Positions 3,433 through 30,547 of a DNA stretch of 64,000 nt are shown here, piece after piece; position 1 is the first letter of the stretch, and every line of letters begins with the position of its first letter. Source of the DNA: Vallitalea guaymasensis (GTDB taxonomy: Bacteria > Bacillota > Clostridia > Lachnospirales > Vallitaleaceae). The notes under the pieces were generated by a model. That model ran no database searches. It was not told the origin of the DNA and worked only from the letters and a program-made list of their open reading frames with translations. The position numbers and the translations under genes are program-made. The stretch covers positions 3,906,001 through 3,970,000 of the forward strand of contig NZ_CP058561.1 in NCBI RefSeq assembly GCF_018141425.1, given 5' to 3'.

Positions 3433-5601
3433 ATGCACCAGACAAAAGTAATAAAAACAATAGTGTGTGGAGTAGGATTCGGACAATTTTATTTGGAAGC
3501 ATTACAACTTATAAAAGATGAAGTAAAGTTGATTGGTATTTTATCTAATGGTAGTGAGAAATCAAAAGAATGTGCCAAGTATTATGGAGTTGATTTATAT
3601 ACAGATATAAAAGAGATTCCTAGTGATATTGACTTAGCATGTATTGTTGTAAAATCTGAAATCATGGGTGGTCAAGGTGTTGATTTAGCAATAGAATTTC
3701 TACAGAGAAAAATAAATGTAATTCTTGAACACCCTGTTTGCCATAAGAATATAGCAAAGTGCATGAAAACTGCTAAAGAACATAATGTATTTTTCAAAGT
3801 TGGAGATTTGTATGCAAATCTTCCTTCTGTGAAAAAATACATGGATTGTACAAAAGAACTCTTTAAAATACAGAAACCCCAGTATATAGAGATACAATGC
3901 TCCACAAGAGTTCTTTTTCCAATGGTACATATCCTATCTAAACTATTACCAAGCATAAGTCCTATAAAAGTTGTTTGTTGCACCAAAGGATTAGGTATAT
4001 ATCAGATAATATCAGGAACCATAGGTAAAATACCTTTTCTATTAAAGGCAAATAATGAACTTAATGTAAATGAGCCAGATAGCTACATAAGAGAATTCCA
4101 TAGATTCTCCATAGACGTTCAAGGTGGGAGATTAACACTTACTGATACTCATGGTCCTGTTATATGGCAGCCCATTCTGAAATTGCCTACTCTGGATATA
4201 GAACCAAAGGATAGGTTTACAAAATATCCTAGGGAGCTTTTGAATGAAAGCACTCATATTATTGGAGATGAAAAAACTCCTTCATATGATGTGATACTAT
4301 CTGAGTTATGGCCAAAAGCCATAGCAGAAGATATACAGGAAATGAGAAGCATGATTTTGGGTGAATCAGAAAAGAAATATGATTTGTGTAATATGCAGCA
4401 AATGATTCTATATGCAAAACAATGGCAGCAGTTAACAAAAGAATTAGGGTATCCAGAGTTAAACCACCAAAGTAGCAATGAATGGGTTGACCCATACATA
4501 TTTGAAAATACGGATAGTGAATCTACGAATAGAGTCACAGAAAAGGATATTATCAATTACATAGACAGCTTGGATGAAGCATCTATAATATCTATGTTGT
4601 ATACATTACAGTCATACAACGCTTTATTGCCCAATGTTCATTATACAGAAGAAGATATACTAACTCTGATCAAGATGTCACCAAAATATAATAAGGTGAT
4701 AAAAAGATGGTTAAGAGTATTGCATGATAAAAAATATGTTGATGTAATTAACAATGAATTCATCTATAGGAATAATAGAATAACCAAGAATGATATGGAA
4801 AATTATTGGAAAAATGTTAATTATATATCAAGTAATAAAATATGCCCTAAACTGGTTGTAGATTATTTTGAAAGCAATGCAAATAATCTTGCCCAGTTTC
4901 TGAATGATGAGATGAATCCGACTTTTTTATTATTTCCCAAAGGCCGTATGGATTATGCTGATGCATTATATAGTGAAACAATAATAGCCAAATATCTAAA
5001 TGGGAAAATAGCAAAAAAAGTAATGGAAATTATGGATGGTAAGAAAGATACTATTAATATTTTGGAAGTAGGAGCAGGAACGGGAGCAACTTCCAAGGTA
5101 GTACTTGAGGAAATGAGTAAAAGGAATAATAATAGTTTCTTCTATCAATTCACTGATATATCTAATTATTTTATTTCTAATGCAAAAAAATATTTCAGCA
5201 GTTATTGCAATATGGATTATCAAGTTATTGATATAGATACTGATTTAAAAGAACAAGGAATCAATATTGGAAGTAAGGATATTATAATAGCCAATGGTGT
5301 TCTCAACAATGTTCGTAATATGAAATACACACTTAATAACTTCCAAAGAACCATGAGAAAAGGCGGTTACTTATTGATAATAGAACCAACAAAAGAATTT
5401 GTTGAAATGCTCATATCACAAGTATTCATGATGGAATCACCAAATGATGATAGAAATAATACGAAAACAACATTCTTGACTGTTAAACAGTGGAGAAGCA
5501 TCTTAGAGGAAAATAATTTTCTGATTGAAGATGTTTTGCCGAATGATGATAATGTTCTAAAACATTTTGGTCAAAATCTATTTATAGTTAAAAAGGAGTA
5601 A
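3433..5601 (+). CDS. thiazolinyl-imide reductase fused to a SAM methyltransferase
   Basis: This is a 722-residue bifunctional tailoring protein. Residues 1 to about 350 form a Gfo/Idh-type NAD(P)-dependent reductase of the Irp3/PchG kind. The Rossmann motif is GVGFG (residues 13-17), followed by a LEHP segment typical of thiazolinyl-imide reductases, which reduce one thiazoline to thiazolidine on the carrier protein. Residues from about 360 to 722 form an NRPS/PKS-type methyltransferase with an intact SAM motif I (LEVGAGTGATS, residues 544-554) and the later FTDIS and KGGYLLIIEPT segments. Irp3 and PchG are about 350-365 residues and lack this extension. In pyochelin and yersiniabactin synthetases the equivalent methyltransferase is embedded in an A domain; here it is attached to the reductase. 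It is likely to methylate a thiazolidine nitrogen or an alpha carbon. The pairing may couple reduction with N-methylation, as in the last steps of pyochelin synthesis. Confidence 0.85.
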   Translation: MHQTKVIKTIVCGVGFGQFYLEALQLIKDEVKLIGILSNGSEKSKECAKYYGVDLYTDIKEIPSDIDLACIVVKSEIMGGQGVDLAIEFLQRKINVILEHPVCHKNIAKCMKTAKEHNVFFKVGDLYANLPSVKKYMDCTKELFKIQKPQYIEIQCSTRVLFPMVHILSKLLPSISPIKVVCCTKGLGIYQIISGTIGKIPFLLKANNELNVNEPDSYIREFHRFSIDVQGGRLTLTDTHGPVIWQPILKLPTLDIEPKDRFTKYPRELLNESTHIIGDEKTPSYDVILSELWPKAIAEDIQEMRSMILGESEKKYDLCNMQQMILYAKQWQQLTKELGYPELNHQSSNEWVDPYIFENTDSESTNRVTEKDIINYIDSLDEASIISMLYTLQSYNALLPNVHYTEEDILTLIKMSPKYNKVIKRWLRVLHDKKYVDVINNEFIYRNNRITKNDMENYWKNVNYISSNKICPKLVVDYFESNANNLAQFLNDEMNPTFLLFPKGRMDYADALYSETIIAKYLNGKIAKKVMEIMDGKKDTINILEVGAGTGATSKVVLEEMSKRNNNSFFYQFTDISNYFISNAKKYFSSYCNMDYQVIDIDTDLKEQGINIGSKDIIIANGVLNNVRNMKYTLNNFQRTMRKGGYLLIIEPTKEFVEMLISQVFMMESPNDDRNNTKTTFLTVKQWRSILEENNFLIEDVLPNDDNVLKHFGQNLFIVKKE

Positions 5602-5603
5602 AT

Positions 5604-6305
5604 ATGTTAAAAATTAATCAATTACAATGCAAAGTCACAGATTTACAAAAAGCTGTAAATGACTTTAAAGAATTAGGATTTACTGTTTGCTGGGGAGCTG
5701 ATCCAGAGCGGGCAAGTAATGCATTCATATATTTTGAGAATGGACCTGTCATTGAACTTTTTTTAATGCCTGATATAGCTTATTACGCTGCATCAGTTTT
5801 TGGTGTTTTTTATGGAAGCAGTGCAAAAAGACGCTGGAAATATTGGTGTAGATCAAATGAAGGCTGGTGCGATTTTAACTTGAAAAGTGATAATGAAGCA
5901 GCATCCTTAGAAAATATAGGTAATATTAGAAATCACGTAAAAAATAAGAATATTTCAGTATCAAGAGTTATTAAAGGTCATAGAACACAGCCAGACGGAC
6001 AAAAATTAAAATTCGGATATTTTGTTACAGACCCAGTTGAATTACCTTTTATAACTTCCGATTATCACATAAAGAATACCATTAAAAAAGTTAAGCACAA
6101 AAATGGTGCAAAAGAAATTGAATGGGTCAAAGTTGGAGTTAATGATAAAAACAGAGATAAATTAGAATTGTTGACTGGTGATGATAAGAAAATAATATTA
6201 GTGCCTTCTGAACATACGAACATAATTGAAATAGGAATTAAAGGGATTAAGAATAAATTGGATGGTAATAGATTGCATGGAGCAAAAATAGTTTCGTTAG
6301 ATTAA
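5604..6305 (+). CDS. VOC (glyoxalase/bleomycin-resistance fold) family protein
   Basis: This 233-residue protein begins with a betaalphabetabetabeta-type VOC module (KINQLQCKVTDLQKAVNDFK, then an ENGPVIELFL strand), with a second, weaker half towards residue 220. VOC proteins include metal-dependent isomerases and dioxygenases, and also metal-free ligand-binding resistance proteins. The gene lies two bases after the reductase-methyltransferase gene and 14 bp before the NRPS gene, so it is co-transcribed with the assembly line. It may be a tailoring enzyme acting on the aryl ring or thiazoline, or it may bind and sequester the product. I cannot assign metal ligands with certainty, and no function is established. 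Confidence 0.6.
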   Translation: MLKINQLQCKVTDLQKAVNDFKELGFTVCWGADPERASNAFIYFENGPVIELFLMPDIAYYAASVFGVFYGSSAKRRWKYWCRSNEGWCDFNLKSDNEAASLENIGNIRNHVKNKNISVSRVIKGHRTQPDGQKLKFGYFVTDPVELPFITSDYHIKNTIKKVKHKNGAKEIEWVKVGVNDKNRDKLELLTGDDKKIILVPSEHTNIIEIGIKGIKNKLDGNRLHGAKIVSLD

Positions 6306-6319: not shown

Positions 6320-9300
6320 ATGGAAATAAGTATAGAAAAGTTTTTAGAAGATTTATATGTAAAAGGTATTTCTCTTTGGATGGAAGATGATAAATTACAC
6401 TTCAAAGCTCCAAAGGGCAGTATCAGCAAAGATGAATTAAATATGTTAAAAGAGAATAAGGAAAAGATAATAGATATACTAACAGAAAATGAGACCATAA
6501 AAATAGTTCCTGACATAAAGTCAAGGTATGAGCCCTTTCCTTGTACTGATATACAATCTGCATATCTGTTAGGACGTAGTGATAGTTTTGAATATGGTGG
6601 AGTGGCATGCCATATATATCTGGAATTGGAATATGATCAATTAGAACCGAAGAAGACAGAAGAAATATGGAATAGATTGATTGAACGGCATGATATGTTA
6701 CGTGTGAAATTTGATAAAAGTGGTAATCAATACATTCAGAAAGAAGTAGATGATTTTGAAATAATCTATAACGATTATAGTGGACAAGATGAAAGTGTGC
6801 TTACAGAAAAAATGAATGAAATACGGCAAAACATGGGTAATAGGGTATACGATATTGAGAAATGGCCATTATTCGATATACAACTTACTAAGACTAACAA
6901 TAAATACATAATGCATTTCTCTATTGAATTCATAATAGCAGATTGGACAAGCATTAGATTGTTGTTGAATGAATTTGATATATTGAATAGGAATATAGAT
7001 GAAGAACTTCCTAAATTAGAGCTCACATTCAGAGATTATATATTAGCTGCCGACAAGCTAAAAAAATCAAAACAGTATATTGAAGATAAAAATTATTGGA
7101 TGCAAAGAGTAGATACTCTACCTTCAGCACCTAAATTACCAATATTGGTTAATGAGAAAAATGAAAAAGTAAAGTTCGAGAGACATACTTTACATATAAA
7201 ACAAGATAAATGGAATATATTAAAAGACTTTGTAAAGAAAAAAGGATTGACACCTACAGCAACTGTTTTAACTGCATTTGCACTCATAATAGAAAGATGG
7301 AGTACGGAAAGTAGATTCTGTCTTAATCTTACATTGTTGAATAGAATGCCTATACACCCACAAGTCAATGATATTGTTGGTGATTTTACAACTATCAACT
7401 TATTGGAAATTAACCTTAATGACATCAAGACATTTATAGAATACGCAAAGGACATTCAAAAACGTTTATTCGATGACTTAGACCACAAATTATTTTCAGG
7501 AGTAGAAGTAATTAGAGAATTAGCAAGGAGACATAGCAATAAAGAACTGATGCCCATCATTTTTACTAGTGCCATAGGAAGTGAATCCACTAATGTAGCT
7601 TCATCCAAAATAGAGGTTAATGAAAATGGTATTTCACAAACGCCACAGGTATTCATTGATTGTCAAGCTATGGATGATGAGAATGGGCTTAGAATAAATT
7701 GGGATGTGAGGGATAAGATATTCCCCCAAAACATGATTAAGGATATGTTTAATTCTTTTGAAGAATTATTGAATAGATTAATAGAAATGAAAGAAACCTG
7801 GAATGAAAAAGATATTGTGAAACTTCCATTATGGCAGCAAAACGAAAGAAAAATTGTTAATGATACATCCAAGATTTTGCCAGATAAATTACTGCACCAG
7901 CAAATATTTGAACAAGCAGAATTAACACCGGATAATATAGCTGTCAAAGATGGAAATAATTCAATAACCTATAGAGAGTTAATAAGATTAAGCGATACTA
8001 TATCAGCTTATCTATTAGACGCAGGTTGTAAACCACAGGACAAGATAGCTATAGTAATGGAAAAATCCATTTATCAAGTAGCAAGTGTCCTAGGGATATT
8101 GAATATTGGAGGTATCTATGTACCAATATCCAATAAACAACCTGTATCAAGGATTGAATCAATAATTGAACAATCATCTTCTGACATTGTACTTATGACG
8201 TCATCGTCAAGTATAAAAATAGATGATAACTATAAAGTTATTGAAGTTGATAAATTAGAACCTAGGAATGAAGAGTTTAATAGATTTACAGGTGATTCAA
8301 ATAACACAGCATACATTATATTTACTTCTGGCTCTACAGGTGTGCCAAAAGGTGTTACTATCAGTCATAAAGCTGCCCTGAATACTATAAATGATATAAA
8401 TGATAGATTCAAGGTTACCAGCGATGATTCTATTATAGGAATATCAAAACTTAGCTTTGATTTATCTGTTTATGATATTTTCGGGTTATTAAGTGTTGGA
8501 GGAAAGATAATATATCCTATGGATAGTAAATTAAATGATCCTTCTTATTGGTACTCATTAATATCAGAAAATAATATAACTATGTGGAATACTGTTCCTG
8601 CGATTATGGAGATGCTGGTTAATTACTTGGAAGTATCTAATTATAGCCTCGATTCTATGGAAAAAATATTTTTATCTGGAGATTGGATCGGTGTAAATCT
8701 ACCAGATAGAATTAAAAATAAAATGCCTAATGCAGATATCATATGTATGGGTGGTGCTACAGAAGCTTCCATATGGTCAATATACCACGTATATGACGAT
8801 AGTGATAAATCTTATAAAAGTATACCATATGGCAGACCTCTAGCTAACCAACAATTTAAAGTTTTTGATTCTATGCTAAGAGATTGTCCTGTATTAGTTG
8901 AAGGAGAACTAGGAATCATGGGACAAGGTTTATCAAAAGGATACCTAGGGCAGAAAGAGATAACTGCCAATAGTTTCATAATACATGAAAAAGATAAAAT
9001 ATATCGTACTGGCGATTATGGTAGATACCTTCCTGGCGGAGAAATTGAATTCTTAGGACGAAAAGATGCTCAAGTCAAGATTAGAGGACATAGAATTGAA
9101 TTAGGAGAAATTGAATCGGCTTTGAATAGACATGAGAAGGTTAAATCAGCGGTTGTAATAGTTGGTACAGAGAACAAAAATCAATTATATGGATTTGTCA
9201 TGCTGGACGATAATCAAAAATCACCGAAAGTCACAGAAGATGAGTTAAAAGAATACTTAGCTTCATATATACCTGAGTATATGATACCAACTTCTATTTC

Positions 9301-10627
9301 AATATTATCTATTTTCCCTTTAACTCAAAATGGGAAGGTTGACCGTAAAAAACTGCTTAGTATCAAAATGCAAAATGTATCTCATGATGATAAAGAGAAT
9401 AAGGAAGAAGTATTTGACCAATTGGAATTAAAACTAAAAACAATTATGGAAAGTGTCTTAGAAGTAGTGGAGATAGGTAAGGAAGATGATTTTTATGACT
9501 ATGGAGCCGATTCTCTCATAATGGCACAAGCTGCTGGTATTTTACACGAAGAACTATTAGCCATTAACAAAGATATACCTTATGATGCTCTACTACGTCA
9601 ATTGTTGAATTATCCAAGTATTGATTCCCTTGCCAAATTCGTTAGACAACAAGGAACTGGTGAAGAACAAATAGATGATTCATCCAATGATTCTAGTAAT
9701 GCTTCAATCATTGAGTATAGCAAAAATGAAAATGGACCTCTTAGAATTATTTTACATGCTGGACTTGGAACTATGAACTGTTTCAGATATCTTATAAAGC
9801 ATCTTGTGAAGGAAGATATAGGTACTGTTATAGGAATCGCAGTTAAAGATGCAGATAAATATTCTTCAATAAACCCAGAGGAACTCATAGAAAATATTGC
9901 TGATGATTATGTTGAAAGAATTATGGAATATGACAATAATGATGTACAGATTATTGGATATTGCCTAGGTGGTTTAATAGCGGTGGAAGTGGCTAAACGC
10001 TTGGCTGAAAATAATGTAAATATTGTTGATTTGGTCTTAATTGACAGTCATCCAGTACAAGCTGATATAAAAGACGAACTGTTTTTAGAATCAATATTCA
10101 TAACTAATTTTTATATTACCCTGCCACAGGTCTATGATGAGATTACTATAGATGAACTGGATTATACATTCAAAAGATTATTTGAAAAGCATAGGGATAA
10201 TATTCCAAAAAATGCTTTGTGTAATTTGGATGGGGATGACAAAATCACGAAAGTCAGTAATTTATTTAGAAAGCTAAGTACATTGACAAAAGAAGAAAGA
10301 TTCAGGGATTATGTAGAGGCAATGCATAAGATAACAGGGGAGAATGTACCTGTGAATATGGCAATGGGTATGTTTAATATTTATTGTCAAAGCTTCAAAG
10401 CAGCACAATTTGAACCTTCAATCTATATGGGTGATGTAAGATTTTTATTAGCTCGTGAAGATTTCCAGTATCTAGCTAATTCTAGTGAGAGGTCTTTGGA
10501 TTTTTGGAAACAATTCTGTTTAGGAGAATTTGAAGTCACTAAAATAGATGGAGATCATATTAGTTGTATAGAAGATGAGAAGAACGTACCTCATTTAGCT
10601 AAGTTAGTTACAGAACCTTTGTCATAA
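6320..10627 (+). CDS. NRPS termination module: docking-Cy-A(Cys)-PCP-TE
   Basis: This 1435-residue NRPS is the terminal module. Residues 3-55 resemble the TubC-type docking domain (GISLWMEDDKLHFKAPKG), which accepts an upstream synthetase. Residues about 65-505 form a heterocyclisation (Cy) domain; its DxxxxDxxS motif reads E203 FIIA D208 WT S211, with Glu for the first Asp. The A domain (about 525-1020) has core A3 FTSGSTGVPKG and a hand-read code D-L-Y-N-F-S-M-I-W-K, close to the cysteine code DLYNLSLIWK. The PCP carries Ser1064 in DYGADSL. The C-terminal thioesterase (about 1130-1435) has G-Y-C-L-G-G, so the nucleophile is Cys1215 rather than Ser, with a later GDH for the catalytic His. 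It should add and cyclise the last cysteine and release the product. A strong AGGAGG site precedes the ATG. Confidence 0.92.
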   Translation: MEISIEKFLEDLYVKGISLWMEDDKLHFKAPKGSISKDELNMLKENKEKIIDILTENETIKIVPDIKSRYEPFPCTDIQSAYLLGRSDSFEYGGVACHIYLELEYDQLEPKKTEEIWNRLIERHDMLRVKFDKSGNQYIQKEVDDFEIIYNDYSGQDESVLTEKMNEIRQNMGNRVYDIEKWPLFDIQLTKTNNKYIMHFSIEFIIADWTSIRLLLNEFDILNRNIDEELPKLELTFRDYILAADKLKKSKQYIEDKNYWMQRVDTLPSAPKLPILVNEKNEKVKFERHTLHIKQDKWNILKDFVKKKGLTPTATVLTAFALIIERWSTESRFCLNLTLLNRMPIHPQVNDIVGDFTTINLLEINLNDIKTFIEYAKDIQKRLFDDLDHKLFSGVEVIRELARRHSNKELMPIIFTSAIGSESTNVASSKIEVNENGISQTPQVFIDCQAMDDENGLRINWDVRDKIFPQNMIKDMFNSFEELLNRLIEMKETWNEKDIVKLPLWQQNERKIVNDTSKILPDKLLHQQIFEQAELTPDNIAVKDGNNSITYRELIRLSDTISAYLLDAGCKPQDKIAIVMEKSIYQVASVLGILNIGGIYVPISNKQPVSRIESIIEQSSSDIVLMTSSSSIKIDDNYKVIEVDKLEPRNEEFNRFTGDSNNTAYIIFTSGSTGVPKGVTISHKAALNTINDINDRFKVTSDDSIIGISKLSFDLSVYDIFGLLSVGGKIIYPMDSKLNDPSYWYSLISENNITMWNTVPAIMEMLVNYLEVSNYSLDSMEKIFLSGDWIGVNLPDRIKNKMPNADIICMGGATEASIWSIYHVYDDSDKSYKSIPYGRPLANQQFKVFDSMLRDCPVLVEGELGIMGQGLSKGYLGQKEITANSFIIHEKDKIYRTGDYGRYLPGGEIEFLGRKDAQVKIRGHRIELGEIESALNRHEKVKSAVVIVGTENKNQLYGFVMLDDNQKSPKVTEDELKEYLASYIPEYMIPTSISILSIFPLTQNGKVDRKKLLSIKMQNVSHDDKENKEEVFDQLELKLKTIMESVLEVVEIGKEDDFYDYGADSLIMAQAAGILHEELLAINKDIPYDALLRQLLNYPSIDSLAKFVRQQGTGEEQIDDSSNDSSNASIIEYSKNENGPLRIILHAGLGTMNCFRYLIKHLVKEDIGTVIGIAVKDADKYSSINPEELIENIADDYVERIMEYDNNDVQIIGYCLGGLIAVEVAKRLAENNVNIVDLVLIDSHPVQADIKDELFLESIFITNFYITLPQVYDEITIDELDYTFKRLFEKHRDNIPKNALCNLDGDDKITKVSNLFRKLSTLTKEERFRDYVEAMHKITGENVPVNMAMGMFNIYCQSFKAAQFEPSIYMGDVRFLLAREDFQYLANSSERSLDFWKQFCLGEFEVTKIDGDHISCIEDEKNVPHLAKLVTEPLS

Positions 10628-10649: not shown

Positions 10650-11681
10650 ATGGAATTAGAAGAAAATATCATTATATCTAAGATACAAGGCTATTACACT
10701 GCTTATTTGATGTATATTTCATGTGAACTTAATATATTTGATTATTTATATAATGAAGATATGAGTATTAATGATTTGAGTGAGAAAATAAACATATCAA
10801 GAGATAAGACATATAGGTTGATTAGACCTCTAGTAGCTAATAGTTTTATTAATGAAGAAGATGAATTATTAAGTCTTTCTAGATTAGGTCAAAAGTTATC
10901 CGAATATGACGAAAAATCATTAAAAGGATTTGTTTTATTCAACGGTAGAGAGTGTATGACATGTTGGTCATATATGTATGAGGCATTATCAAAAAATATA
11001 TACCCATTCAAATTAGTGAGTAAAAATGAATTTTTTGATGCCCAAGCTTTAGATGATGGTAAATTTGATAATTTTAATTTGATGATGAGAAGTTCAAGTA
11101 GGAACATGAATCTAAGTCCATACTTGGAACAACAATATAATAAAGATGATAAATTGAAGATTGTTGATATTGGAGGAGGAGCAGGAGATATCATAAGTAA
11201 ATTTTTATTATCTTATCATAATAGTTCAGGGACAATAATTGACCTGGAGCATGTAAGAAAAGAAGCTGAAGAAAACGTTGGTAGCCATAGTCTTTCCAAT
11301 AGATGCAGATTTGTTTCTGGTGACTTCTTTGTAGAATTAAATATACAAGGAGATATATTCATTCTATCTAGAATCATTCATGATTGGGAAGACGAAGATG
11401 CCATTAATATATTGAAAAATGTAAAAAACAATATGGATGAACATTCAAGACTACTTATAATTGAAAAGATAATTCCAGAAAAGATTGAGAAGAAGAATCT
11501 ATATTTGTATATGAGTGACCTGCATATATGGTCAATGTGTGGAGGAAAAGAGAGAACTGAAAATGAGTTGGTTGATATCTGCCAAGAGAGTGGATTAGTA
11601 CTCAATAAGATATATGGATTAGCCGATTTTGAATACATTTTGGAATTCCAGAAAGATTGTTATGAGGAAGGGGTATTATGA
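10650..11681 (+). CDS. SAM-dependent O-methyltransferase (acetylserotonin-OMT type)
   Basis: This 343-residue protein has an N-terminal winged-helix dimerisation domain (SINDLSEKINISRDKTYRLI) and a C-terminal class I methyltransferase domain. SAM motif I is VDIGGGAGDII, and the catalytic segment reads SRIIHDWEDEDA, in which His is the usual general base for O-methylation of phenol-like hydroxyls. The length is normal for the O-methyltransferase_2 family used by plants and by bacterial aromatic polyketide pathways. The gene sits between the two NRPS genes and overlaps the aryl-AMP ligase gene by four bases. If the starter is 1,4-dihydroxy-2-naphthoate, the free 4-hydroxyl, which is not needed for metal binding, is a sensible target; methylation there would also hinder oxidation to the quinone. 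The target is inference. Confidence 0.85.
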   Translation: MELEENIIISKIQGYYTAYLMYISCELNIFDYLYNEDMSINDLSEKINISRDKTYRLIRPLVANSFINEEDELLSLSRLGQKLSEYDEKSLKGFVLFNGRECMTCWSYMYEALSKNIYPFKLVSKNEFFDAQALDDGKFDNFNLMMRSSSRNMNLSPYLEQQYNKDDKLKIVDIGGGAGDIISKFLLSYHNSSGTIIDLEHVRKEAEENVGSHSLSNRCRFVSGDFFVELNIQGDIFILSRIIHDWEDEDAINILKNVKNNMDEHSRLLIIEKIIPEKIEKKNLYLYMSDLHIWSMCGGKERTENELVDICQESGLVLNKIYGLADFEYILEFQKDCYEEGVL

Positions 11682-13264
11682 TGAATTTTAATGATATTTA
11701 TGATACATATGAAAAACAGGGGTATTATGAACCTTTTACAATGGGAGAGCATCTTGAAAACTGGACAGAAAAATATGGTGATAAGATAGCATTAGTTGAA
11801 GAAGACAAAAGAATAACCTATAGGGAATTGAATCAGAAAGTCTATGAATTAGCAGCAGGATTCTATAAAACAGGAATAGGAAAAGGGGATAATGTTGTGG
11901 TTCAACTACCTAATTCAATTGCTTTCGTTATAACATGCTTCGCACTATTTCGTATAGGTGCAAGACCTGTTTTTTCATTGCCAGCCCATAGGGAATCAGA
12001 ACTTAATGGAGTCTTTAATATTGCTAAGCCTGTAGCTTATATCATACCTACTGATTTCTTAGGATTTGATTATTCAGTTATGGCAGAAAAAATGAGTAAG
12101 AAATATCCTTGTTTAAAATTGATTATAACAGACGGACAAGCAGGAGATTACATCAACCTTAATGATTTGTTCATAGAACCTTCTGATATTGAAGATGAAC
12201 CTTCCTATAAAAAAACTGCACTATTCTTATTATCAGGAGGAACAACAACAGGAAAGCCCAAACTAATACCCAAGATTCATTCAGCATATATGTATAATGC
12301 TAAAGCCAGTGCTGTTAGATGTGGATTAGATGAGACAAGTGTTTATCTTGCTTTTTTACCAATAGCACATGATTTTCCATTTTGCAGTCCAGGGGTATTA
12401 GGTACTCTATTATCAGGAGGAAAAGTAGTACTTTGTAAAACCTCAAGCCCAGATGAAGTATTTCCTATGATAGAAAGGGAGCAGGTAACAGTAATGGCAT
12501 TAGTACCAGCCATAGGAGAAGTATGGTTAGATGCTGTCATGTGGGGAGAGAGCGCAGATTTTTCAAGTATCAAGTTAGTAATAGTAGGTGCCACCAAAAT
12601 AGAATATGATACCGCAGAAAGATTATCAGAGACGATGGGGTGCAAGATTCAGCAGGGATATGGATTAGGTGAAGGCTTAACCTGCTTTACTTCTCTTGAT
12701 GACCCTGTAGAAATTGCATTTACTTGCCAAGGAAGCCCCATTTCACAGGGTGATGAGGTGAAAATAGTTGATGAGAATGGAGAAGAAGTAGAAGATGGTG
12801 AGTATGGGGAATTACTTGAAAAAGGACCATATACATTTACTGGATACTATAATTCGCCAGAATTGAATGAAAAGGCATTTACGGATGATGGCTTTTTCCG
12901 TACAGGTGATAGAGCAAGATTCACTGAAGAAGGCAACATACAGCTGGGAGGACGTATTATAGAGATTATCAATAGAGCAGGAGAGAAGATTGTTCCGGCA
13001 GAGCTTGAGGACCATCTAAGGAAATATAAAGACATCAAAGATGTGGCAGTAGTTCCTATGCCTGATAAAAACCTAGGACAAGCTATTTGTGCCTTTATAA
13101 CTACAGATGATTATGATATAAACTTTACAGATATAAATGAATTCTTGAGGAATGAAGGAGTAGCTGCATATAGAATGCCCGATAAGATAAAAGTAATTGA
13201 TTTTTTACCTCGAACTAATGTTGGTAAAGTGGATAAAGTAACACTAAAGAAGATGCTGGAATAA
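11678..13264 (+). CDS. stand-alone aryl-AMP ligase (DhbE/EntE/YbtE family), divergent pocket
   Basis: This 528-residue adenylating enzyme starts like EntE, DhbE and YbtE and should load an aromatic acid onto the ArCP of the large NRPS. Core motifs are present: A3 (SGGTTTGKPK, one residue longer than I recall for EntE SGGTTGTPK), A7/A8 (FRTGDRA, then IEIINRAGEKI) and the A10 lysine (NVGKVDK). The pocket differs from salicylate and dihydroxybenzoate ligases. Where those have H-N at position 235 this has H-D (residue 232, in AHDFPFCSPG). My hand-read ten-residue code is D-F-S-A-I-G-G-T-C-K, against N-Y/F-S-A-Q-G-V-V-N-K for DHB. The Val-to-Gly change removes bulk and would suit a larger, bicyclic acid. 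Because the operons encode DHNA synthesis and no salicylate or DHB synthesis, I propose DHNA as substrate. Confidence 0.88.
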   Translation: MMNFNDIYDTYEKQGYYEPFTMGEHLENWTEKYGDKIALVEEDKRITYRELNQKVYELAAGFYKTGIGKGDNVVVQLPNSIAFVITCFALFRIGARPVFSLPAHRESELNGVFNIAKPVAYIIPTDFLGFDYSVMAEKMSKKYPCLKLIITDGQAGDYINLNDLFIEPSDIEDEPSYKKTALFLLSGGTTTGKPKLIPKIHSAYMYNAKASAVRCGLDETSVYLAFLPIAHDFPFCSPGVLGTLLSGGKVVLCKTSSPDEVFPMIEREQVTVMALVPAIGEVWLDAVMWGESADFSSIKLVIVGATKIEYDTAERLSETMGCKIQQGYGLGEGLTCFTSLDDPVEIAFTCQGSPISQGDEVKIVDENGEEVEDGEYGELLEKGPYTFTGYYNSPELNEKAFTDDGFFRTGDRARFTEEGNIQLGGRIIEIINRAGEKIVPAELEDHLRKYKDIKDVAVVPMPDKNLGQAICAFITTDDYDINFTDINEFLRNEGVAAYRMPDKIKVIDFLPRTNVGKVDKVTLKKMLE

Positions 13265-13281: not shown

Positions 13282-16200
13282 ATGAATGATATTATATATA
13301 GTTATGAAAATATAAAAGAAGATATTAATAAGATGTTAGGTGAACCTATAGATTTCTCTGCTTCTCAAAATTTATTGGAGCTGGGACTAAGTTCATTGCA
13401 AATAATGAGATTAGCCAATGTATGGCGTAGAAAAGGTATAAGAATAACATTTGTGGATCTTATATCAAAGCCCTATCTGGATAAATGGTATGAATCAATT
13501 AATAAGAATAAAATTAGTATAGATAGTAAGAATCAATTAAATGAAACGAAAGAAAAAATTGAGACTATACAATATATAGATGACGAGGAAGAATTTTCTC
13601 TTACAGATGTACAATACGCTTATTGGATAGGAAGGGAAAAACATCAGATATTAGGTGGTGTAGGTTGTCATGGATATCTTGAGATAGATGGAAAAAATGT
13701 GATACCAGAGAAATTAGAAGATGCATGGAATACATTGATATCACATCATCCTATGCTTAGAGTTAAATATACTAGTAATGGTAAACAAAAAATAATAAGT
13801 AATCCAGAAAAAAGAGAAATAGTAATACATGATCTAAAAGATATGACAGAAGATATTATATCACTTGAACTCGAAAAGATACGAAAAAGAATGGCACACA
13901 GACTTTTGGATATTGAAAATGGTAAAGTAACAGGTATGGAAATAAGCATATTGCCAGATTATAATACAAGAATTCATTTTGATATTGATTTACTTGTTGC
14001 AGATGTTCAGAGCTTCCAGATAATATTAAGAGACCTAGTAGCCATCTACAATAGAAACCAGATGCCAAAAGCTCCAAAAAACTGGAGTTTCGGTAGATAT
14101 CTAAAGAAGTTTGAAAAAAATCAATTAGTAATGAAGAACGAAGCAAAAAAATATTGGGATAGTATATTAGATACATTACAGGGACCACCTTCTCTACCTT
14201 TAGCGAAAAAAACAGAAGAGATAGAAGATGTCAAATTCAAAAGGCACGAATACTTTTTGAATAAATCTCATTGGGAAGGGATAAGGAGAAAGTCTGCAGG
14301 ATATGGATTAACCCCTGCAATGATATTTTTAACAGCTTATTCAAAGATAATTAAAAGATGGAGCAGTAATGAACAGTTCTTGATGAATATTCCTCTTTTT
14401 AATAGAGATTGTTTAGATAAAGAATTAGAGAATGTAGTAGCGGACTTCACGAATCTGCTACTTATGCAAATGGATTTTACTAATGAAGAATCCTTTGTTT
14501 CATCAGCTAAAAAGATACAAGAACAATTCCATAATAACATGAAATATTCTGCTTACTCAGGAGTTGAAATTCAACGTGATTTAGCGAAATTACATAAAGA
14601 GCAGAAAAATTTTGCACCAGTAGTATTTTCCTGTAACTTAGGTGAGCCACTTATAAATAATGAGTTCAGAGATGTTTTTGGTGAAATAACATATATGATA
14701 TCTCAAACTCCCCAAGTGTGGATTGATCTACAGATTTTTAATTATGAAGATGGTGTTTTACTTATATGGGATTCTGTGGAAGAACTGTTCCCTAAGGGTA
14801 TGCTGGATGATATGTTTAACAGGTTCACTTTACTGCTGGAACAATTAGGGGCTGATGATGATATATGGAATGGCATACCCCACTTAGTTCCTGAAAAACA
14901 GATTAAGATAAGAGAAGAAATAAATAAAAAGAATGCTTTACAATTAGAAAATAACCTGCATACTTCATTCTTTAAGTATGCTTCAATGAAGCCAGATAAA
15001 ATAGGAGTAATAGATACAAATGGTAAACAATATACATATGGAGAATTACTTGATGATACGTTGAAAGTCGCTAATTATCTTAGGAAGCAAGGCGTAAAAG
15101 AAAAGATGGCAGTAGGAATGACAATGGAGCGGGGAGTAGACCAGATTATTGCTATAATGGCAATTGTATCTATTGGAGCACACTATGTTCCAGTTGCTGC
15201 CGACCAGCCTATAGTTAGACAAAATGTAATGTATAAAAAAGCGAACGTAAAATATCTGATGATTAATAAGAAGTTAGAGGAAAGCAAGTATCTAGATTCA
15301 TCAATCAAGATATTAAATATAGAAGAAGGAAAAAAAGAAGAAAGACTGCCAATTTCCCAGATTAATGAAATAGATGGTAGTAATCTGGCATATATAATAT
15401 TTACTTCTGGTTCAACTGGCGAGCCAAAAGGTATTGAGATAACTCATTTCAATGCTTTAAATACTATAACAGATATTATAAACAGGTATCACATAGAAGA
15501 AAACGATAAAATATTAAGTGTTTCTTCAGTGGCATTTGATTTATCTGTATTTGATATATTCGGCTTACTAAATGTTGGTGGAACTGTAGTATTGATTAGA
15601 GAAGAATCCTATAGAGATGCTGATGAATGGGTTAGATTAATAAACAAGTATAATATAACTCTTTGGAATTCTGTTCCAGCACTGTTAGATATGCTGTTAG
15701 TGATGGCAGAGAGTAAACACATCAGTATGCCAACTCTTAGATTAGCTTTACTTTCAGGAGATTGGATTGGTCTTCATTTACCCAAGAAATTAAAAGAGAT
15801 TGCTTCTAATTCATCTATGGTTGGTCTAGGTGGTGCTACAGAAGCTTCCATATGGTCTAATCATTATGAAGTAACTTTACCTATACCTGATGAGTGGAAG
15901 TCCATACCTTATGGTAAGCCATTGACCAATCAGAAATTCAGAGTTGCTGACAAACAAGGAAGAGATTGTCCAGACTATGTGCCTGGAGAATTATGGATTG
16001 GTGGAGATGGAGTAGCAAGAGGGTATGTTAATGAGCAACAGTTGACAAAAAACAGTTTTGTTATGTGGGAGGGTGAACGTTGGTACAAGACAGGTGACTT
16101 AGGACGTTATCTATCAGATGGTAATATAGAATTTCTTGGAAGAGAAGATTTTCAAGTTAAGATAAGAGGTCACCGTATTGAATTAACAGAGATTGAAATA

Positions 16201-19200
16201 GCTATAAATAGATTTCATAACATAAAAGATAGTGTTGTAATACCTGTAAACAACTTAAATGGTAAATATCTGGTATCTTTCTTAGTATTAGAAAATAAGG
16301 ATTTGACATTAGATACTAAGAAACTATCAGATTACTTGGAAAATAAACTACCACACTATATGGTACCTACTTCATTCAACATTATCCAAGAAATGCCTAT
16401 AACATCTAATGGAAAAGTTGATATCAAGAGTTTGACCGAGATGAATATAGAAGAAGACGTTAAGGAGTGTATATCACCAAAAACACCATTAGAGATTTCT
16501 TTAGCCAAGATATGGAGTGAAATACTGCAAGTAGATAGGATAAGTACCTTGGACAACTATTTTGCTTTAGGAGGAGATTCACTTCTCGCAACTAGATTAA
16601 GTGCATTAGTTTCTGAGAAACTGAATGTAAGATTATCATTAGAAGAAATATTTACAAAGCCAGTTTTTGAAAAACAAATACTCCATATAGAAAAGGTTTT
16701 AGCTAATAATGATATAGAAGAAGCTTACCAAGAAAATAAAGAATTGGCAAAATACATTGAAATAAATGATAAGATGAAATATGAACCATTCCCATTAACA
16801 GAAATACAACAGGCTTATCTGATAGGACGTAGTGGTCTGTATACTCTGGGAGATGTATCTACTCATTATTATTATGAATTAGAAGGAAGTACAATTGATA
16901 TACAAAAATTAGAGAATGCCTTGAATGTATTAATAGGTTACCATGATATGTTAAGAGCTGTTATCCTGCCAGAAGAACATAAACAGGTAATACTTGAAAA
17001 AGTACCTGATTATCATATCAAAACTACAGATTTAAGAGGTATTTCTAATATAAAGGGAAAGTTGGATGAGATAAGAGAAGAGATTTCTCACACTACTCTA
17101 TCAATAGATAAATGGCCTTTGTTTGACATTAGGGCAACTTATTACGATGATAAGATAAGATTACATATGAACTTTGATAATATTATATTTGATGGATGGA
17201 GTATTTCATTATTCATGGAACAAATGAAAAATTTATATTCAGATATAGATTATAAACTGCCAGAAATACACCTTTCCTTTAGAGATTATGTATTGGCTCT
17301 ACAGAAAATAAAAGAAACATCCTTATATGAGAATGATAAAAATTATTGGTTGAATGAAATTAAGAGTATGCCTCCTGCACCAGAATTACCTATTGAAAAT
17401 AGTCCGGATTCTCTTCAAACAGCTAGATTCAATCATTATGAATCCATATTAGTCAGTGATAGGTGGAATAGACTTAAATCTATAGGGAAAAAAGAAAATA
17501 TTACACCTTCAGCCATTTTATTGACTGCATTTTCAGAAGTGATAGGAAGGTTCAGCAAGACACAAGATTTTACAATAAACTTGACCAGATTTAATAGATT
17601 ACCTGTTCATGATAGGATAAATGATATAATCGGGGACTTTACTTCTCTTGTTATGTTGTCGGTAGACAGAAAAAATGGAGCAACATTCTTGGAAAGATGT
17701 AAAAATGTACAAAAGAAATTATGGCAAAATCTTGACCACCCATATTTTTGTGGAGTTGAAGTTCAGAGAGAATACAGTAAGCTTGGGTCCAAGGATAATT
17801 CGTCACCTATTATGCCAATAGTATTTACAAGTGGTCTAGGGATAAGTCTGGATGGGGATCAGGCAAGTAATGATTTCCCAAAGATAAAATATAACATGTC
17901 AGAGACACCACAGGTATGGTTGGATCATCAAGTAGCAGAAAAGGATGGTAATCTATATCTTTTCTGGGATGTAATTGATAAGATTTTTCCTGATGGATTG
18001 GTTAATGAAATAATGTCAGCCTATGAAAAATTATTAACTGATTTGGCAGTCAATAAAGATATGTGGACAAATAATACTTGGAACCTGATTAGTATTTTAG
18101 ACCAGTCAAGAATAGAAGCAAATAATACAAAAGCTCCTATGGCTTCTGAAACATTGATAAGCTTGTTTTTAAAGCAAGTCAAGGAAAATCCTGATTATAT
18201 AGCTGTCATCAATAATGATAGAACACTAACATATAAGGAAGTATTTTTGTATGCATATGAAATAAAAAAATATATCGAAGTAAAAAACATTGATGATAAG
18301 AGCCTGATTGCTGTAGTCATGAACAAGGGTTGGGAACAAATTCCAGCGGTTCTAGGTGTAATGATGGCAAAAGCTGCTTATCTACCTATAGATTCCAGTA
18401 ATTCAGTAGACAGAATGAGAGTGATATTAAAAGAAGCTGATACAAATATTATTTTGACCCAATCTGTTCTATATAATGAGTTAGATATAGAAGGAGCAAT
18501 TAAGCTGTCTGTTGACGAAGTTTTGATATCTGATAAAACCATAGATGATTATGTAGATGGGACAAAACCTGATGATTCAGCTTATGTAATATATACATCT
18601 GGTTCAACTGGAGTACCAAAAGGAGTTGTCATAGATCATAAAGGTGCAGTTAACACCATTTTAGATATCAATAAGCGTTTTAATATAGATCATAATGATA
18701 GAACAATAGCATTGTCAAACCTTAATTTTGATTTATCGGTATATGATATATTTGGAATGTTATCCTGTGGAGGAGCCATTGTCATACCTGAAAGTACAAA
18801 AGCAAAAGAACCTGATTATTGGATTGACCTATTAGATGAAAAGAATATAACCGTATGGAATACTGTTCCTGCATTCATGCAGATGCTTATTGAATATGAC
18901 TATGATAATAAGCTTATAGATAATACTGATCTAAGGTTAGTATTGTTAAGTGGAGACTGGATACCTCTTAATCTGCCAGATAAAATAAAAGCTGCATTTG
19001 AAAATGCTGTCGTAGCAGGTCTAGGAGGAGCGACAGAAGCCTCTATCTGGTCAAATATATTTATAGTGGAAGATATCAATGATAAGTGGAAAAGCATACC
19101 TTATGGGAAGCCCCTTACCAATCAGAGATACCATATCTTGAATGAACTGATGGAGGATTGTCCTAACTGGGTCGAAGGTAGATTATATATTGCTGGAGAA

Positions 19201-21099
19201 GGTCTTGCAAGAGGATACTGGAATGACGAAGATAAAACAAGAGAAAGATTCATATATCATTCTGAAAAAGGTGAACGGTTATATTATACAGGTGATATGG
19301 CAAGATACTTCCCTGATGGAAATATAGAGTTTCTTGGAAGAGAAGACTTGCAGGTCAAGATAAATGGTTATCGTGTTGAATTAGGAGAGGTTGAATCAGC
19401 AATTAGTAGTATAGATGGTATTGCAGATAGTGTTGTAACTCTTATGGATACTAAAGACTTAGGTGTAGGATACTTGATAGCTAATATAATCATAGAAGAT
19501 GAAAAGAAGATATATGATGAAGTGAAAGTGGAATCTGTAGATACTCTATATCATTGGAATGAGTTAAGTGAGTATATAACTACTATAGACAGTAATATTA
19601 AGACACCAGATTATCATAAGATATTAGATGAATTTCGTAAGTTTACTGATTATGCCAGCATTTATGGTATATGCAGAGCTTTTTTTGAGGCAGGTATATT
19701 TGATGAAGCTTTCAAGGAATATACCATAGATGAAATAATGGAAAAAGCAGGTTATATAGCTAGATACAGAACACTTATTAACAGTTGGCTGGACATGTTA
19801 ATAGATGAAAACATTATCAAAATAAAAGATAATAGATATTATTGTGATAGCATGATATTAGTTAAAATTCCTATAAAGCCTAATGCTGGATACATAAAGT
19901 CACACGAAGATGTATATGCAAAAGCATTGGACATAATCAATAAAATCAGACGAGATATTAAGACTTATAATTTGATATTAAGAGGTAAGATAGAACCTTT
20001 AGAGTTATTGTTAGAGGAAAAAGAGGTATTTCTAACACCAGAATATCTTAATAAATATAATCTAACCACAGAGTATAATAAAAAGCTTATGTTGCATGTA
20101 TTTGATAAGTTGTTAAAAATACATTCAGAAGATAAGAAAGTCAAAGTACTGGAAATTGGAAGCAGAGCTTCTAATATCACAAAAGACTTGGTAGAAGGCT
20201 TAGGAACCAATGTAGAATATACTTATTCAGATGAATCAAACTTTTTCTTGAACAAGAAAAAAGAGAGTCTAGGAGATATAAGCATAGAATACAAATTATT
20301 CAATATGAATAAATCAGCTATGGAGCAAGGTTATGAAGATGAAAGATACCATATCATAATTGCAGACAATTGCCTTCATAGATCAGATAATATAGGAAAG
20401 ACAGTAGAATACCTTAACGATATGATAGAACCGGGAGGATATCTATTATTTGTTGAGCCAACGGAAAATAATAAATTGATTCTTAATACAACAGCTTTCT
20501 TTGAAGATGGATATGAAGGCCTTACGGATGAACGTAAAGAGAGCAAACTACCATTTTTATCAGCATCCAGATGGATAGAATTATTAAAAGACAGCAGTTA
20601 TAAGAGAGTGTACAATATGGATAATTTCTTCATAGCAGAAGCCAAAGACACTTATTATTCTTTTAACCAAGAAAGGATAAAAGAATTATTAAGTCATAAG
20701 CTTACTGATTATATGATGCCTAAGAAATTTGTTGTACTAGATAGATTCCCCTTATCCAATAATGGAAAAATAGATAGGGCTAAGATAAAAGAGATGAACG
20801 AAAAATCTAATATGACTTTGATAGGTGAAAAGAGATATCCTACGAATGATACAGAAAAAGAAATCGCTCTTATATGGTGTAATATTCTAAAATATGATGA
20901 GATAGGCATAGATGATAATTTCTTTGAACTAGGAGGAGATTCATTATTAGCCATTCAAGTAATAAATGTTTTTAAAGAGAAAAAAATCAATATAGCTTTA
21001 AAAGATATTTTTGATAATCCTACAATAAAATCATTAGGAGATTTTATTGATGAGGAATTAAGCAAGGATGATGAAGAGTATGAAGAAGGAGAAATATAA
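13282..21099 (+). CDS. NRPS: ArCP-Cy-A(Cys)-PCP-Cy-A(Cys, inserted MT-like)-PCP
   Basis: This is a 2605-residue initiating and elongating synthetase. An N-terminal aryl carrier protein carries Ser38 in LGLSSL. Cy1 (about 110-545) has the canonical motif D236 LLVA D241 VQ S244. A1 (about 560-1060) reads D-L-F-N-L-S-L-I-W-K. PCP1 carries Ser1100 (LGGDSL). Cy2 (about 1165-1600) has D1299 NIIF D1304 GW S1307. A2 (about 1625-2500) reads D-L-Y-N-L-S-L-I-W-K, the textbook cysteine code. PCP2 carries Ser2554. Between A8 (KINGYRVELGE, about 2026) and A10 (NNGKIDR, about 2490) a methyltransferase-like domain of some 390 residues is inserted, but its SAM motif I reads LEIGSRASN (G2293) without GxGxG. 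Such SAM-defective inserts act as epimerases in PchE and HMWP2. It has no TE, so the chain passes to the docking-Cy-A-PCP-TE protein. The domain order matches an HMWP2-like aryl-Cys-Cys synthetase. Confidence 0.93.
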   Translation: MNDIIYSYENIKEDINKMLGEPIDFSASQNLLELGLSSLQIMRLANVWRRKGIRITFVDLISKPYLDKWYESINKNKISIDSKNQLNETKEKIETIQYIDDEEEFSLTDVQYAYWIGREKHQILGGVGCHGYLEIDGKNVIPEKLEDAWNTLISHHPMLRVKYTSNGKQKIISNPEKREIVIHDLKDMTEDIISLELEKIRKRMAHRLLDIENGKVTGMEISILPDYNTRIHFDIDLLVADVQSFQIILRDLVAIYNRNQMPKAPKNWSFGRYLKKFEKNQLVMKNEAKKYWDSILDTLQGPPSLPLAKKTEEIEDVKFKRHEYFLNKSHWEGIRRKSAGYGLTPAMIFLTAYSKIIKRWSSNEQFLMNIPLFNRDCLDKELENVVADFTNLLLMQMDFTNEESFVSSAKKIQEQFHNNMKYSAYSGVEIQRDLAKLHKEQKNFAPVVFSCNLGEPLINNEFRDVFGEITYMISQTPQVWIDLQIFNYEDGVLLIWDSVEELFPKGMLDDMFNRFTLLLEQLGADDDIWNGIPHLVPEKQIKIREEINKKNALQLENNLHTSFFKYASMKPDKIGVIDTNGKQYTYGELLDDTLKVANYLRKQGVKEKMAVGMTMERGVDQIIAIMAIVSIGAHYVPVAADQPIVRQNVMYKKANVKYLMINKKLEESKYLDSSIKILNIEEGKKEERLPISQINEIDGSNLAYIIFTSGSTGEPKGIEITHFNALNTITDIINRYHIEENDKILSVSSVAFDLSVFDIFGLLNVGGTVVLIREESYRDADEWVRLINKYNITLWNSVPALLDMLLVMAESKHISMPTLRLALLSGDWIGLHLPKKLKEIASNSSMVGLGGATEASIWSNHYEVTLPIPDEWKSIPYGKPLTNQKFRVADKQGRDCPDYVPGELWIGGDGVARGYVNEQQLTKNSFVMWEGERWYKTGDLGRYLSDGNIEFLGREDFQVKIRGHRIELTEIEIAINRFHNIKDSVVIPVNNLNGKYLVSFLVLENKDLTLDTKKLSDYLENKLPHYMVPTSFNIIQEMPITSNGKVDIKSLTEMNIEEDVKECISPKTPLEISLAKIWSEILQVDRISTLDNYFALGGDSLLATRLSALVSEKLNVRLSLEEIFTKPVFEKQILHIEKVLANNDIEEAYQENKELAKYIEINDKMKYEPFPLTEIQQAYLIGRSGLYTLGDVSTHYYYELEGSTIDIQKLENALNVLIGYHDMLRAVILPEEHKQVILEKVPDYHIKTTDLRGISNIKGKLDEIREEISHTTLSIDKWPLFDIRATYYDDKIRLHMNFDNIIFDGWSISLFMEQMKNLYSDIDYKLPEIHLSFRDYVLALQKIKETSLYENDKNYWLNEIKSMPPAPELPIENSPDSLQTARFNHYESILVSDRWNRLKSIGKKENITPSAILLTAFSEVIGRFSKTQDFTINLTRFNRLPVHDRINDIIGDFTSLVMLSVDRKNGATFLERCKNVQKKLWQNLDHPYFCGVEVQREYSKLGSKDNSSPIMPIVFTSGLGISLDGDQASNDFPKIKYNMSETPQVWLDHQVAEKDGNLYLFWDVIDKIFPDGLVNEIMSAYEKLLTDLAVNKDMWTNNTWNLISILDQSRIEANNTKAPMASETLISLFLKQVKENPDYIAVINNDRTLTYKEVFLYAYEIKKYIEVKNIDDKSLIAVVMNKGWEQIPAVLGVMMAKAAYLPIDSSNSVDRMRVILKEADTNIILTQSVLYNELDIEGAIKLSVDEVLISDKTIDDYVDGTKPDDSAYVIYTSGSTGVPKGVVIDHKGAVNTILDINKRFNIDHNDRTIALSNLNFDLSVYDIFGMLSCGGAIVIPESTKAKEPDYWIDLLDEKNITVWNTVPAFMQMLIEYDYDNKLIDNTDLRLVLLSGDWIPLNLPDKIKAAFENAVVAGLGGATEASIWSNIFIVEDINDKWKSIPYGKPLTNQRYHILNELMEDCPNWVEGRLYIAGEGLARGYWNDEDKTRERFIYHSEKGERLYYTGDMARYFPDGNIEFLGREDLQVKINGYRVELGEVESAISSIDGIADSVVTLMDTKDLGVGYLIANIIIEDEKKIYDEVKVESVDTLYHWNELSEYITTIDSNIKTPDYHKILDEFRKFTDYASIYGICRAFFEAGIFDEAFKEYTIDEIMEKAGYIARYRTLINSWLDMLIDENIIKIKDNRYYCDSMILVKIPIKPNAGYIKSHEDVYAKALDIINKIRRDIKTYNLILRGKIEPLELLLEEKEVFLTPEYLNKYNLTTEYNKKLMLHVFDKLLKIHSEDKKVKVLEIGSRASNITKDLVEGLGTNVEYTYSDESNFFLNKKKESLGDISIEYKLFNMNKSAMEQGYEDERYHIIIADNCLHRSDNIGKTVEYLNDMIEPGGYLLFVEPTENNKLILNTTAFFEDGYEGLTDERKESKLPFLSASRWIELLKDSSYKRVYNMDNFFIAEAKDTYYSFNQERIKELLSHKLTDYMMPKKFVVLDRFPLSNNGKIDRAKIKEMNEKSNMTLIGEKRYPTNDTEKEIALIWCNILKYDEIGIDDNFFELGGDSLLAIQVINVFKEKKINIALKDIFDNPTIKSLGDFIDEELSKDDEEYEEGEI

Positions 21100-23424: not shown

Positions 23425-23449
23425 TTAATTGTATAAGAGAGGTTATTGT

Positions 23450-24589: not shown

Positions 24590-24600
24590 GGAGATAAATT

Positions 24601-26262: not shown

Positions 26263-27077
26263 GTAAAGCTATGAAGATAAAATATAAAGATATTAATTAC
26301 AATGTAGAAGTTGAAGGTGATGGAATACCTATAGTGTTTTTACATGGTTACTCAGAAAATATGAGTACTTTCAGGTATTTGGATTGTACAGGATATAAAA
26401 GAATTTTTATAGATCTCATAGGACATGGGAAAACCCAGTCGCCTAAGGATATGAAATACTATAATGTGAAATATTTAATAAAGGCAATTAACTATATAGT
26501 TAAGTCTATAACTGATACAAAGTATATATTTTATGGTTATTCAATGGGAGGAAGAATGGCTTTAGCATATGCTCTTGAATATCAAGAAGAGTTAAGCCAT
26601 CTTATCTTAGAATCATCTTCTTATGGTATAGAAGACCAATCAATACGTGATAAACGTTATTATAATGATTGTAGGTTAGCTGAAGAGATAAGACATAATG
26701 GAATAGAGTGGTTTGAATCCTATTGGAGTAATATATTGATATTCAAAACTCAAAAGATGTTAGGTGAAGATGCAAGAAATACTATAAAGAAGATTAGACT
26801 CAGCAATAATATAATTGGGTTATCCAACTCACTTATAGGTTTTAGTCAAGGTAGAGTTAACTGCCTTAGAAATGAATTATATAAACTGAATATAGGTGTA
26901 ACATATATAAGTGGTGAAATAGATAAAAAATATACATCTATAGGAGAGGAACTTACTAAGCTGATAAGAAATATAAAACATGTTAGAGTTAAGTCCAGCG
27001 GACATAATGTTCATATGGAAAAAACTCAGTCAATCAATAAGTTATTAAATGAGATTAGACTATCTCATAGTGAATGA
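26256..27077 (+). CDS. menH: SHCHC synthase MenH-like alpha/beta hydrolase
   Basis: This 273-residue alpha/beta-hydrolase has the nucleophile elbow GYSMGG, an acid in ISGEIDKKY and the His in SSGHNVHMEK, plus the oxyanion segment FLHGYSE. MenH eliminates pyruvate from SEPHCHC to give 2-succinyl-6-hydroxy-2,4-cyclohexadiene-1-carboxylate. The start at 26256 overlaps menD by seven bases; an in-frame ATG at 26271 is an alternative. The position between menD and menB is the usual one in menFDHBEC operons, which supports the assignment over a generic hydrolase. A 92-bp gap follows, in which I see no promoter or operator of note. Confidence 0.85.
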   Translation: MLGKAMKIKYKDINYNVEVEGDGIPIVFLHGYSENMSTFRYLDCTGYKRIFIDLIGHGKTQSPKDMKYYNVKYLIKAINYIVKSITDTKYIFYGYSMGGRMALAYALEYQEELSHLILESSSYGIEDQSIRDKRYYNDCRLAEEIRHNGIEWFESYWSNILIFKTQKMLGEDARNTIKKIRLSNNIIGLSNSLIGFSQGRVNCLRNELYKLNIGVTYISGEIDKKYTSIGEELTKLIRNIKHVRVKSSGHNVHMEKTQSINKLLNEIRLSHSE

Positions 27078-28012: not shown

Positions 28013-28023
28013 TGGTGATAATT

Positions 28024-30544: not shown

Positions 30545-30547
30545 CTT

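Follow-up and report, generated by a model that had tools for sequence, protein, structure and literature searches.

In the stretch of Vallitalea guaymasensis DNA analyzed here (64,000 nucleotides, hereafter the window; contig NZ_CP058561.1, positions 3,906,001 to 3,970,000), a thiazolinyl imide reductase and a methyltransferase (MT) of the kind embedded in nonribosomal peptide synthetase (NRPS) adenylation (A) domains are joined in a single chain. This fusion, its recurrence in other genomes, the kinship of its MT, a free slot in module 3 of the adjoining synthetase, and the loss of the MT in a same-genus genome (G018) can all be read from the sequences. We consider it probable that the protein is a bifunctional trans-acting enzyme which would reduce a carrier-bound thiazoline and then N-methylate the ring, its MT having been transferred from A-domain kin.

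The fused chain is a single 722-aa open reading frame (Table 1). By the curated TIGR01761 cut-off and its motifs, the N-terminal half is predicted to be a thiazolinyl imide reductase of the Irp3/PchG type: residues 8–345 resemble the Irp3/YbtU structures 4gmf and 4gmg (E 6e-30), CGVGFGQFY, EHPVCH, and DTHGPVIW are all found, and the FGxxY, EHP, and GPxxW positions agree with the YbtU and PchG rows in an alignment of 30 reductases. The only TIGR01761-family match in the whole genome was the window gene itself. For the C-terminal half, the highest-scoring solved structures were the CurJ, AprA, and DisA MTs. An initial sequence-only reading had already described an Irp3/PchG-like reductase and an MT with a full SAM motif in one chain, and the domain search bore out both parts.

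Table 1. Features of the window (positions counted from its first nucleotide).
Feature	Position	Strand	Evidence or remark
Reductase-MT fusion	3433..5601	+	One uninterrupted ORF, 722 aa
Thiazolinyl imide reductase domain, residues 6-347	3448..4473	+	TIGR01761 245.5 bits vs. cut-off 188.8; 4gmf
PchF-type MT domain, residues ~376-722	4558..5598	+	382.5 bits to custom MT profile; trees
SAM motif I ILEVGAGTG, residues 543-551	5059..5085	+	Motif table
ANGVLNNV segment	5290..5313	+	Asn-Asn at the site of His in HMWP1 MTs and epimerase-type inserts
Stretch missing (approx.) from the orthologous G018 operon	4507..6284	+	
VOC/glyoxalase-like protein (PF13468)	5604..6305	+	Starts 2 bases past fusion
NRPS module 3, docking-condensation(Cy)-A-PCP-TE, A without MT insert	6320..10627	+	Domain and profile search
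O-methyltransferase-like protein (PF00891)	10650..11681	+	
Aryl-acid AMP ligase-like protein	11678..13264	+	TIGR02275 538 bits, below cut-off 723.55
NRPS modules 1-2, carrier-Cy-A-PCP-Cy-A(insert)-PCP	13282..21099	+	3 PP-binding, 2 condensation, 2 AMP-binding stretches; Cy inferred
A2 MT-like insert without SAM motif, LHR kept, predicted epimerase-type	19633..20658	+	Profile, trees, motif table
Saccharopine-dehydrogenase-like oxidoreductase (PF03435), possible second reductase	21068..22207	+	
1,4-Dihydroxy-2-naphthoate route genes	22408..31705	+	DAHP synthase, isochorismate synthase, MenD, MenH, MenB, MenE, MenC, MenI-like, thioesterase-like

Phylogenetically, the fused MT is kin to the PchF-type stuffed MTs. 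Two trees of MT-like domains were built, one of 40 and later one of 53 domains. In the latter, 12 of the 13 fused MT rows (several of them near-copies) and one A-domain insert from G759 form a clade (97/96), nested in a 24-row clade (99/97) with module-3 inserts and the Burkholderia PchF MTs, a label taken from position and domains in an unannotated record. In the 40-domain tree, the fused and PchF MTs likewise share a 14-row clade (99/95). Eight domains were left out of the smaller tree as duplicates, truncated, or long branches (L080 twice, L079_16428, L057_4888, L060_5234, L081 twice, L062_11094), the larger one omits the G837 fusion duplicate and one short match, an earlier insert alignment omitted four short matches, and the G557 fusion, a near-copy of that of G531, is absent from the MT trees. 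The Asn-Asn of the ANGVLNNV segment is common to the window MT and Burkholderia PchF (GALNN), and all 12 fused MTs of the 97/96 clade carry GVLNN (most), GVVNN (G338), or GALNN (G852/G845), while a second MT group, including the second MT of G338, reads V-L-E/D-N. A His in this post-motif segment matters for carbon-MTs, and an N..H segment is found in HMWP1 and in 8/8 coelibactin-type module-3 inserts.

The sequence-only reading also held that the A2 insert of the same operon had lost its SAM motif, and it does read VLEIGSRASN. The motif-less inserts (window A2, both from G338, Klebsiella A2, and HMWP2, the last labeled by position beside irp1 in unannotated or split records) form a separate clade in two trees (99/98 and 100/98), so that in a comparison with PchF, HMWP1, and HMWP2 inserts the fused MT falls with PchF and A2 with HMWP2. 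A His-Arg pair is kept in all 12 motif-less-clade rows of the motif table, and three dropped long-branch rows keep only the His; the Burkholderia PchE insert, at ~25 bits, was left out of the comparison. The A2 insert is best read as a predicted epimerase-type insert as in HMWP2 and PchE, inserted epimerases being described in available passages on PchE (PMC8807600) and HMWP2 (PMC9547227).

As to where the MT came from, the proposed move out of the synthetase onto the reductase stands in its general form, given the A-domain-MT kinship, and fails for the A2 slot as donor: a topology deriving the fused MT from the window and G018 A2 inserts was rejected (p-AU 0.0056). An MT thus appears to have left a synthetase A domain, yet not from A2; it is module 3 (6320–10627) that has a free slot, its A domain lacking an insert. 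Unlike the stuffed MT of PchF, the window MT follows the reductase instead of interrupting an A domain, and an A7-A8 profile detected no A-domain remnant in the window and Klebsiella linkers. Placing all six fused MTs of the tested tree in one clade was also rejected (p 0.0004). The five without the second G338 MT fall on one side of a weakly supported branch (47/26), the G759 A-domain insert is placed among fused MTs, and the reductase halves form no supported clade of their own in a reductase tree that left out two truncated frames present whole elsewhere, which together allow different counts of fusion events.

Relocation of an A-domain MT onto the reductase is seen most clearly in G338, from another family of the phylum, whose 1216-aa protein has two MTs behind the reductase. 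The second MT clusters with other genomes' module-3 inserts (98/98 in the 40-domain and 97/95 in the 53-domain tree), and the stretch between the two resembles A7-A8 at 37.5 bits by a custom profile of 48 segments, whereas none of 1000 shuffled sequences, 500 of them made from that stretch, scored above 11.3. At E 0.01 the fusion has no Pfam A-domain match, and an A9-like tail after the second MT was not significant (5.1 bits vs. 5.4 for the best shuffle). A tandem duplication of the two MTs was rejected (p-AU 0.0016). In G338, module 3 is encoded on a different contig, lacks an MT insert, and adjoins a VOC gene.

In G852 and G845, whose clusters are near-identical and count as one example, the genes run AMP ligase, carrier-Cy-A(insert)-PCP, reductase-MT, and Cy-PCP-TE. 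The last protein has neither A domain nor MT, hence no MT host, and across these 19 kb the fused MT alone has an intact motif among the two MT families profiled; this makes the set pyochelin-like, with the MT of PchF sited on the reductase. On a Klebsiella plasmid, the fusion stands alongside an intact module-3 MT, with a VOC gene adjoining the fusion. This plasmid, pINF237_01-VP (L042), carries a thiazoline-siderophore-like NRPS cluster in which the fusion is annotated merely as "methyltransferase"; the available text of PMC6205773 describes it for its iuc2a and rmpA loci.

Across the genome sets, all of which are samples giving lower bounds, the fusion is real, recurrent, and uncommon. Within the own family, 2 of 22 genomes matched at E 1e-15, one of them fused, and within the own order 7 of 295 matched at E 1e-25, just one of them, the window genome, over the full length. 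The class sample yielded 14 matches above the TIGR01761 cut-off in 9 of 391 genomes, that of the window being the sole fused one; G531, G557, and G674 from this sample each hold an extra fused copy with a diverged reductase, below the threshold of that scan. The phylum sample gave two genomes above cut-off out of 398 (window and G338, both fused), with weaker matches in 33 more. Finally, the order of G531, a related one, had matches in 24 of 249 genomes and the fusion in nine, as full-length single frames in G837, G852 (two), G845, G825, and G531, as fused frames detected by profile in G674, G832, and G857, and broken by one TGA in G925. The same domain order in separate assemblies rules out the local assembly error that the sequence-only reading had raised as a danger, and its other concern, a C-terminal domain grouping with unrelated MTs, did not materialize for the window fusion. 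Fusion genes on L079, L080, L088, and L105 are almost identical in G531, G557, G825, and G852, and G531 and G557 belong to separate families, which makes recent horizontal transfer likely.

Among plasmids, 267 of 72,556 records matched the fusion; of the 40 matches listed, only Klebsiella CP032834.1 spans nearly the whole query in one piece, the two-piece hits among them being annotated irp1 and ybtU, or just one of the two. The Klebsiella fusion DNA had no match in the E. coli genomes, and a search of viral contigs added nothing.

Streptomyces has a second fusion type (in the strains NBC_01320 and SAT1 and in S. clavifer), with a small class I MT of another lineage joined to the same reductase family. 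This MT scores 1.5 bits against the A-insert MT profile, and in Pantoea At-9b and G759 it is encoded by a gene of its own. The three Streptomyces reductases form one clade (100/99) and so count as a single event, and this fusion appears to have an origin separate from the PchF-type one. Both MT lineages match the broad Pfam family PF08242, which makes them distantly related and not of unrelated folds. The relatives thus indicate that joining of MT and reductase arose more than once, and two MT lineages on one reductase family argue that reduction and methylation are coupled, as the sequence-only reading had supposed and as remains the best interpretation. The gene order in NBC_01320 is that listed for SCO7681–SCO7691 of coelibactin in the accessible part of PMC5270213, where SCO7685 appears as "hypothetical protein". 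The Streptomyces fusion at L053 15983–18088 corresponds in position to SCO7685, and by this analogy SCO7685 may be such a fusion.

Within the genus itself, a natural loss can be seen. In G018, a Vallitalea MAG with the operon on a 201-kb contig, the row is conserved at 81–96% protein identity, except that the MT and VOC sequences are missing. The reductase ends at 359 aa, and the DNA from there to module 3 retains AAAATAGTTTCGTTAGATTAA. This sequence occurs once in the window, at 6285–6305, as the last VOC codons. This VOC scar speaks for deletion rather than insertion, and most likely MT and VOC (~1.8 kb) were lost in one deletion. The reverse, insertion of both into a G018-like state, we judge unlikely on the same grounds.

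How the fusion would work can be sketched as follows. The reductase half would dock on an NRPS module and reduce thiazoline to thiazolidine with NADPH, whereupon the MT half would add a SAM-derived methyl group to the newly basic ring nitrogen; with a PchF-type N-methyltransferase transferred to the reductase C terminus, two successive steps would have become one chain. We infer here both activities, their order, N- over C-methylation, and which ring is treated. For pyochelin, Patel and Walsh reportedly reconstituted thiazoline reduction and N-methylation in 2001, and work by Ronnebaum from 2019 is said to concern a "stuffed methyltransferase" in pyochelin N-methylation. Against this probable scheme counts G018, which keeps the operon without the MT, so that the methyl group seems dispensable there. 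Carried further, the same absence of MT and VOC would make the MT a tail on its way out, dispensable and of little function in Vallitalea, which we regard as very improbable given the intact motifs of the window protein and the retention of the fusion in several lineages.

A more serious competitor, if still an unlikely one, is that the reductase half acts mainly as a docking arm that delivers the MT to the carrier protein, with reduction as a secondary activity that some lineages have lost. Seven fusions (G531, G557, G674, G825, G832, G857, and a copy in G852; they fall into three sets of near-copies, and the G557 MT is outside the motif table) have lost family motifs in the reductase half and kept the MT motif, G531-type sequences reading EIPKSK where the window has EHPVCH. 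Each of their contigs holds two more reductase genes, which largely keep the motifs in the three checked (G531, G557, and G674), and in one of the two distinct thiazoline NRPS clusters of G674 (L062, L081, L083) a strongly degenerate reductase is fused to an intact MT. Such losses imply that the two activities need not go together. However, the reductase motifs are kept in the window, Klebsiella, and G338, and mostly so in G837, G845, and the other G852 copy, and no second TIGR01761 reductase was found in the window genome. With at least two MT lineages moved onto the reductase, one with an A-domain fragment attached, it is tempting to speculate, quite tentatively, that tailoring enzymes use the thiazoline reductase fold as a portable docking arm, and that the reductase may in places survive for MT delivery only. 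CurJ- and DisA-type MTs are carbon-MTs. So is the MT of HMWP1 (PMC9547227). With such relatives, the fused MT might act on another position (a ring carbon, or a phenol or naphthol oxygen) or on another intermediate. We hold this for rather improbable, since the fused MTs have Asn-Asn against the His of HMWP1 and coelibactin-type module-3 inserts and group with PchF, and the gene at 10650 already supplies an O-MT-like protein.

The setting of the proposed coupled reduction and N-methylation is an operon-like row of fusion, VOC, NRPS, ligase, and oxidoreductase genes, followed by a dihydroxynaphthoate route. Within 22408–30946, DAHP synthase, isochorismate synthase, MenD, MenH, MenB, MenE, and MenC all exceed their cut-offs and the MenI-like thioesterase scores below its own; the thioesterase-like protein at the end of the set is named by similarity. 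The window genome (one contig, 5.63 Mb) gave no match to MenA, which 9 of 14 controls matched, nor to the UbiA family, matched by 14 of 14. This suggests that the dihydroxynaphthoate is probably not made for menaquinone in this genome and may prime the NRPS. The line is probably primed by 1,4-dihydroxy-2-naphthoate, and the predicted product is a probable dihydroxynaphthoyl-capped thiazoline metallophore. Such priming has been proposed for a Sporomusa termitida cluster related to karamomycins (PMC12971057, seen in part), so the idea is already published and the window cluster is a further candidate for it. In a partial readout, six A domains fitted the substrate-code pattern.

Among known systems, pyochelin comes closest in its chemistry: PchG belongs to the same reductase family, the MTs share the clade with Burkholderia PchF, and the same two reactions are proposed, whereas in pyochelin the MT lies inside the PchF A domain and the reductase is separate, and in the window both form one chain and module 3 lacks an MT. 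Yersiniabactin has the same reductase family (Irp3/YbtU) and, like the window, an HMWP2-type insert in an A domain, with YbtU a separate 366-aa protein instead of a fused one. In gene content, the coelibactin/sorangibactin-type set (reductase, VOC, saccharopine-dehydrogenase-like protein, aryl ligase, and two NRPSs) is complete in the window. As far as the available portions go, sorangibactin SrbE–SrbJ (PMC10127202) and mupirochelin MchE–MchJ (PMC10080011) have an Irp3-like reductase, VOC, saccharopine-dehydrogenase-like protein, aryl-AMP ligase, and two NRPSs as in the window, and sorangibactin has tandem N-methyl thiazolidines (PMC10127202). These two clusters list reductase, VOC, and trans-acting MTs as separate genes, whereas the window MT is fused and of the A-insert type, and their starter pathway differs as well (PMC10127202, PMC10080011). 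The coelibactin-like Streptomyces clusters share the reductase-MT fusion with the window, but with a small class I MT, whose profile had no hit in window positions 1–32000. The window isochorismate synthase scores 78.9 bits against the salicylate synthase model TIGR03494 (cut-off 325), and no P450 was recognized among the listed window ORFs. In the accessible parts of the openly licensed literature, including PMC6205773, PMC6814731, PMC10291242, PMC11934131, PMC5270213, and PMC13033682, a reductase-MT fusion is otherwise not described, although one published passage can be understood as a previous mention of coupling of this kind; we take this absence as a weak sign of novelty.

Relocation of NRPS domains is usually guessed from phylogeny alone. 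Here, several further lines of evidence accompany the donor clade: the unoccupied slot in module 3, the piece of an A domain left in G338, the joining of the reductase to another MT lineage in Streptomyces, and the deletion that G018 underwent in nature. The system also lends itself to comparing how well a tailoring domain performs in cis with how well it performs on a partner acting in trans, and the fusion may serve as a marker for N-methyl-thiazolidine metallophores of clusters without salicylate genes.

Immediately upstream of the fusion, at 555–3404, lie ECF-type transporter genes (a double ATPase, an MptD-like S component, and, by eye, a T component). S components in similar surroundings adjoin the clusters of G578 (L058 13383–16258) and G759 (L059), and by eye a similar one lies near that of G338 (L074 9798–12587). 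Elsewhere in the window genome, at 1.29–1.31 Mb (L004, L005), frames of 4106 and 8253 aa with PKS-type MTs form another large PKS/NRPS cluster.
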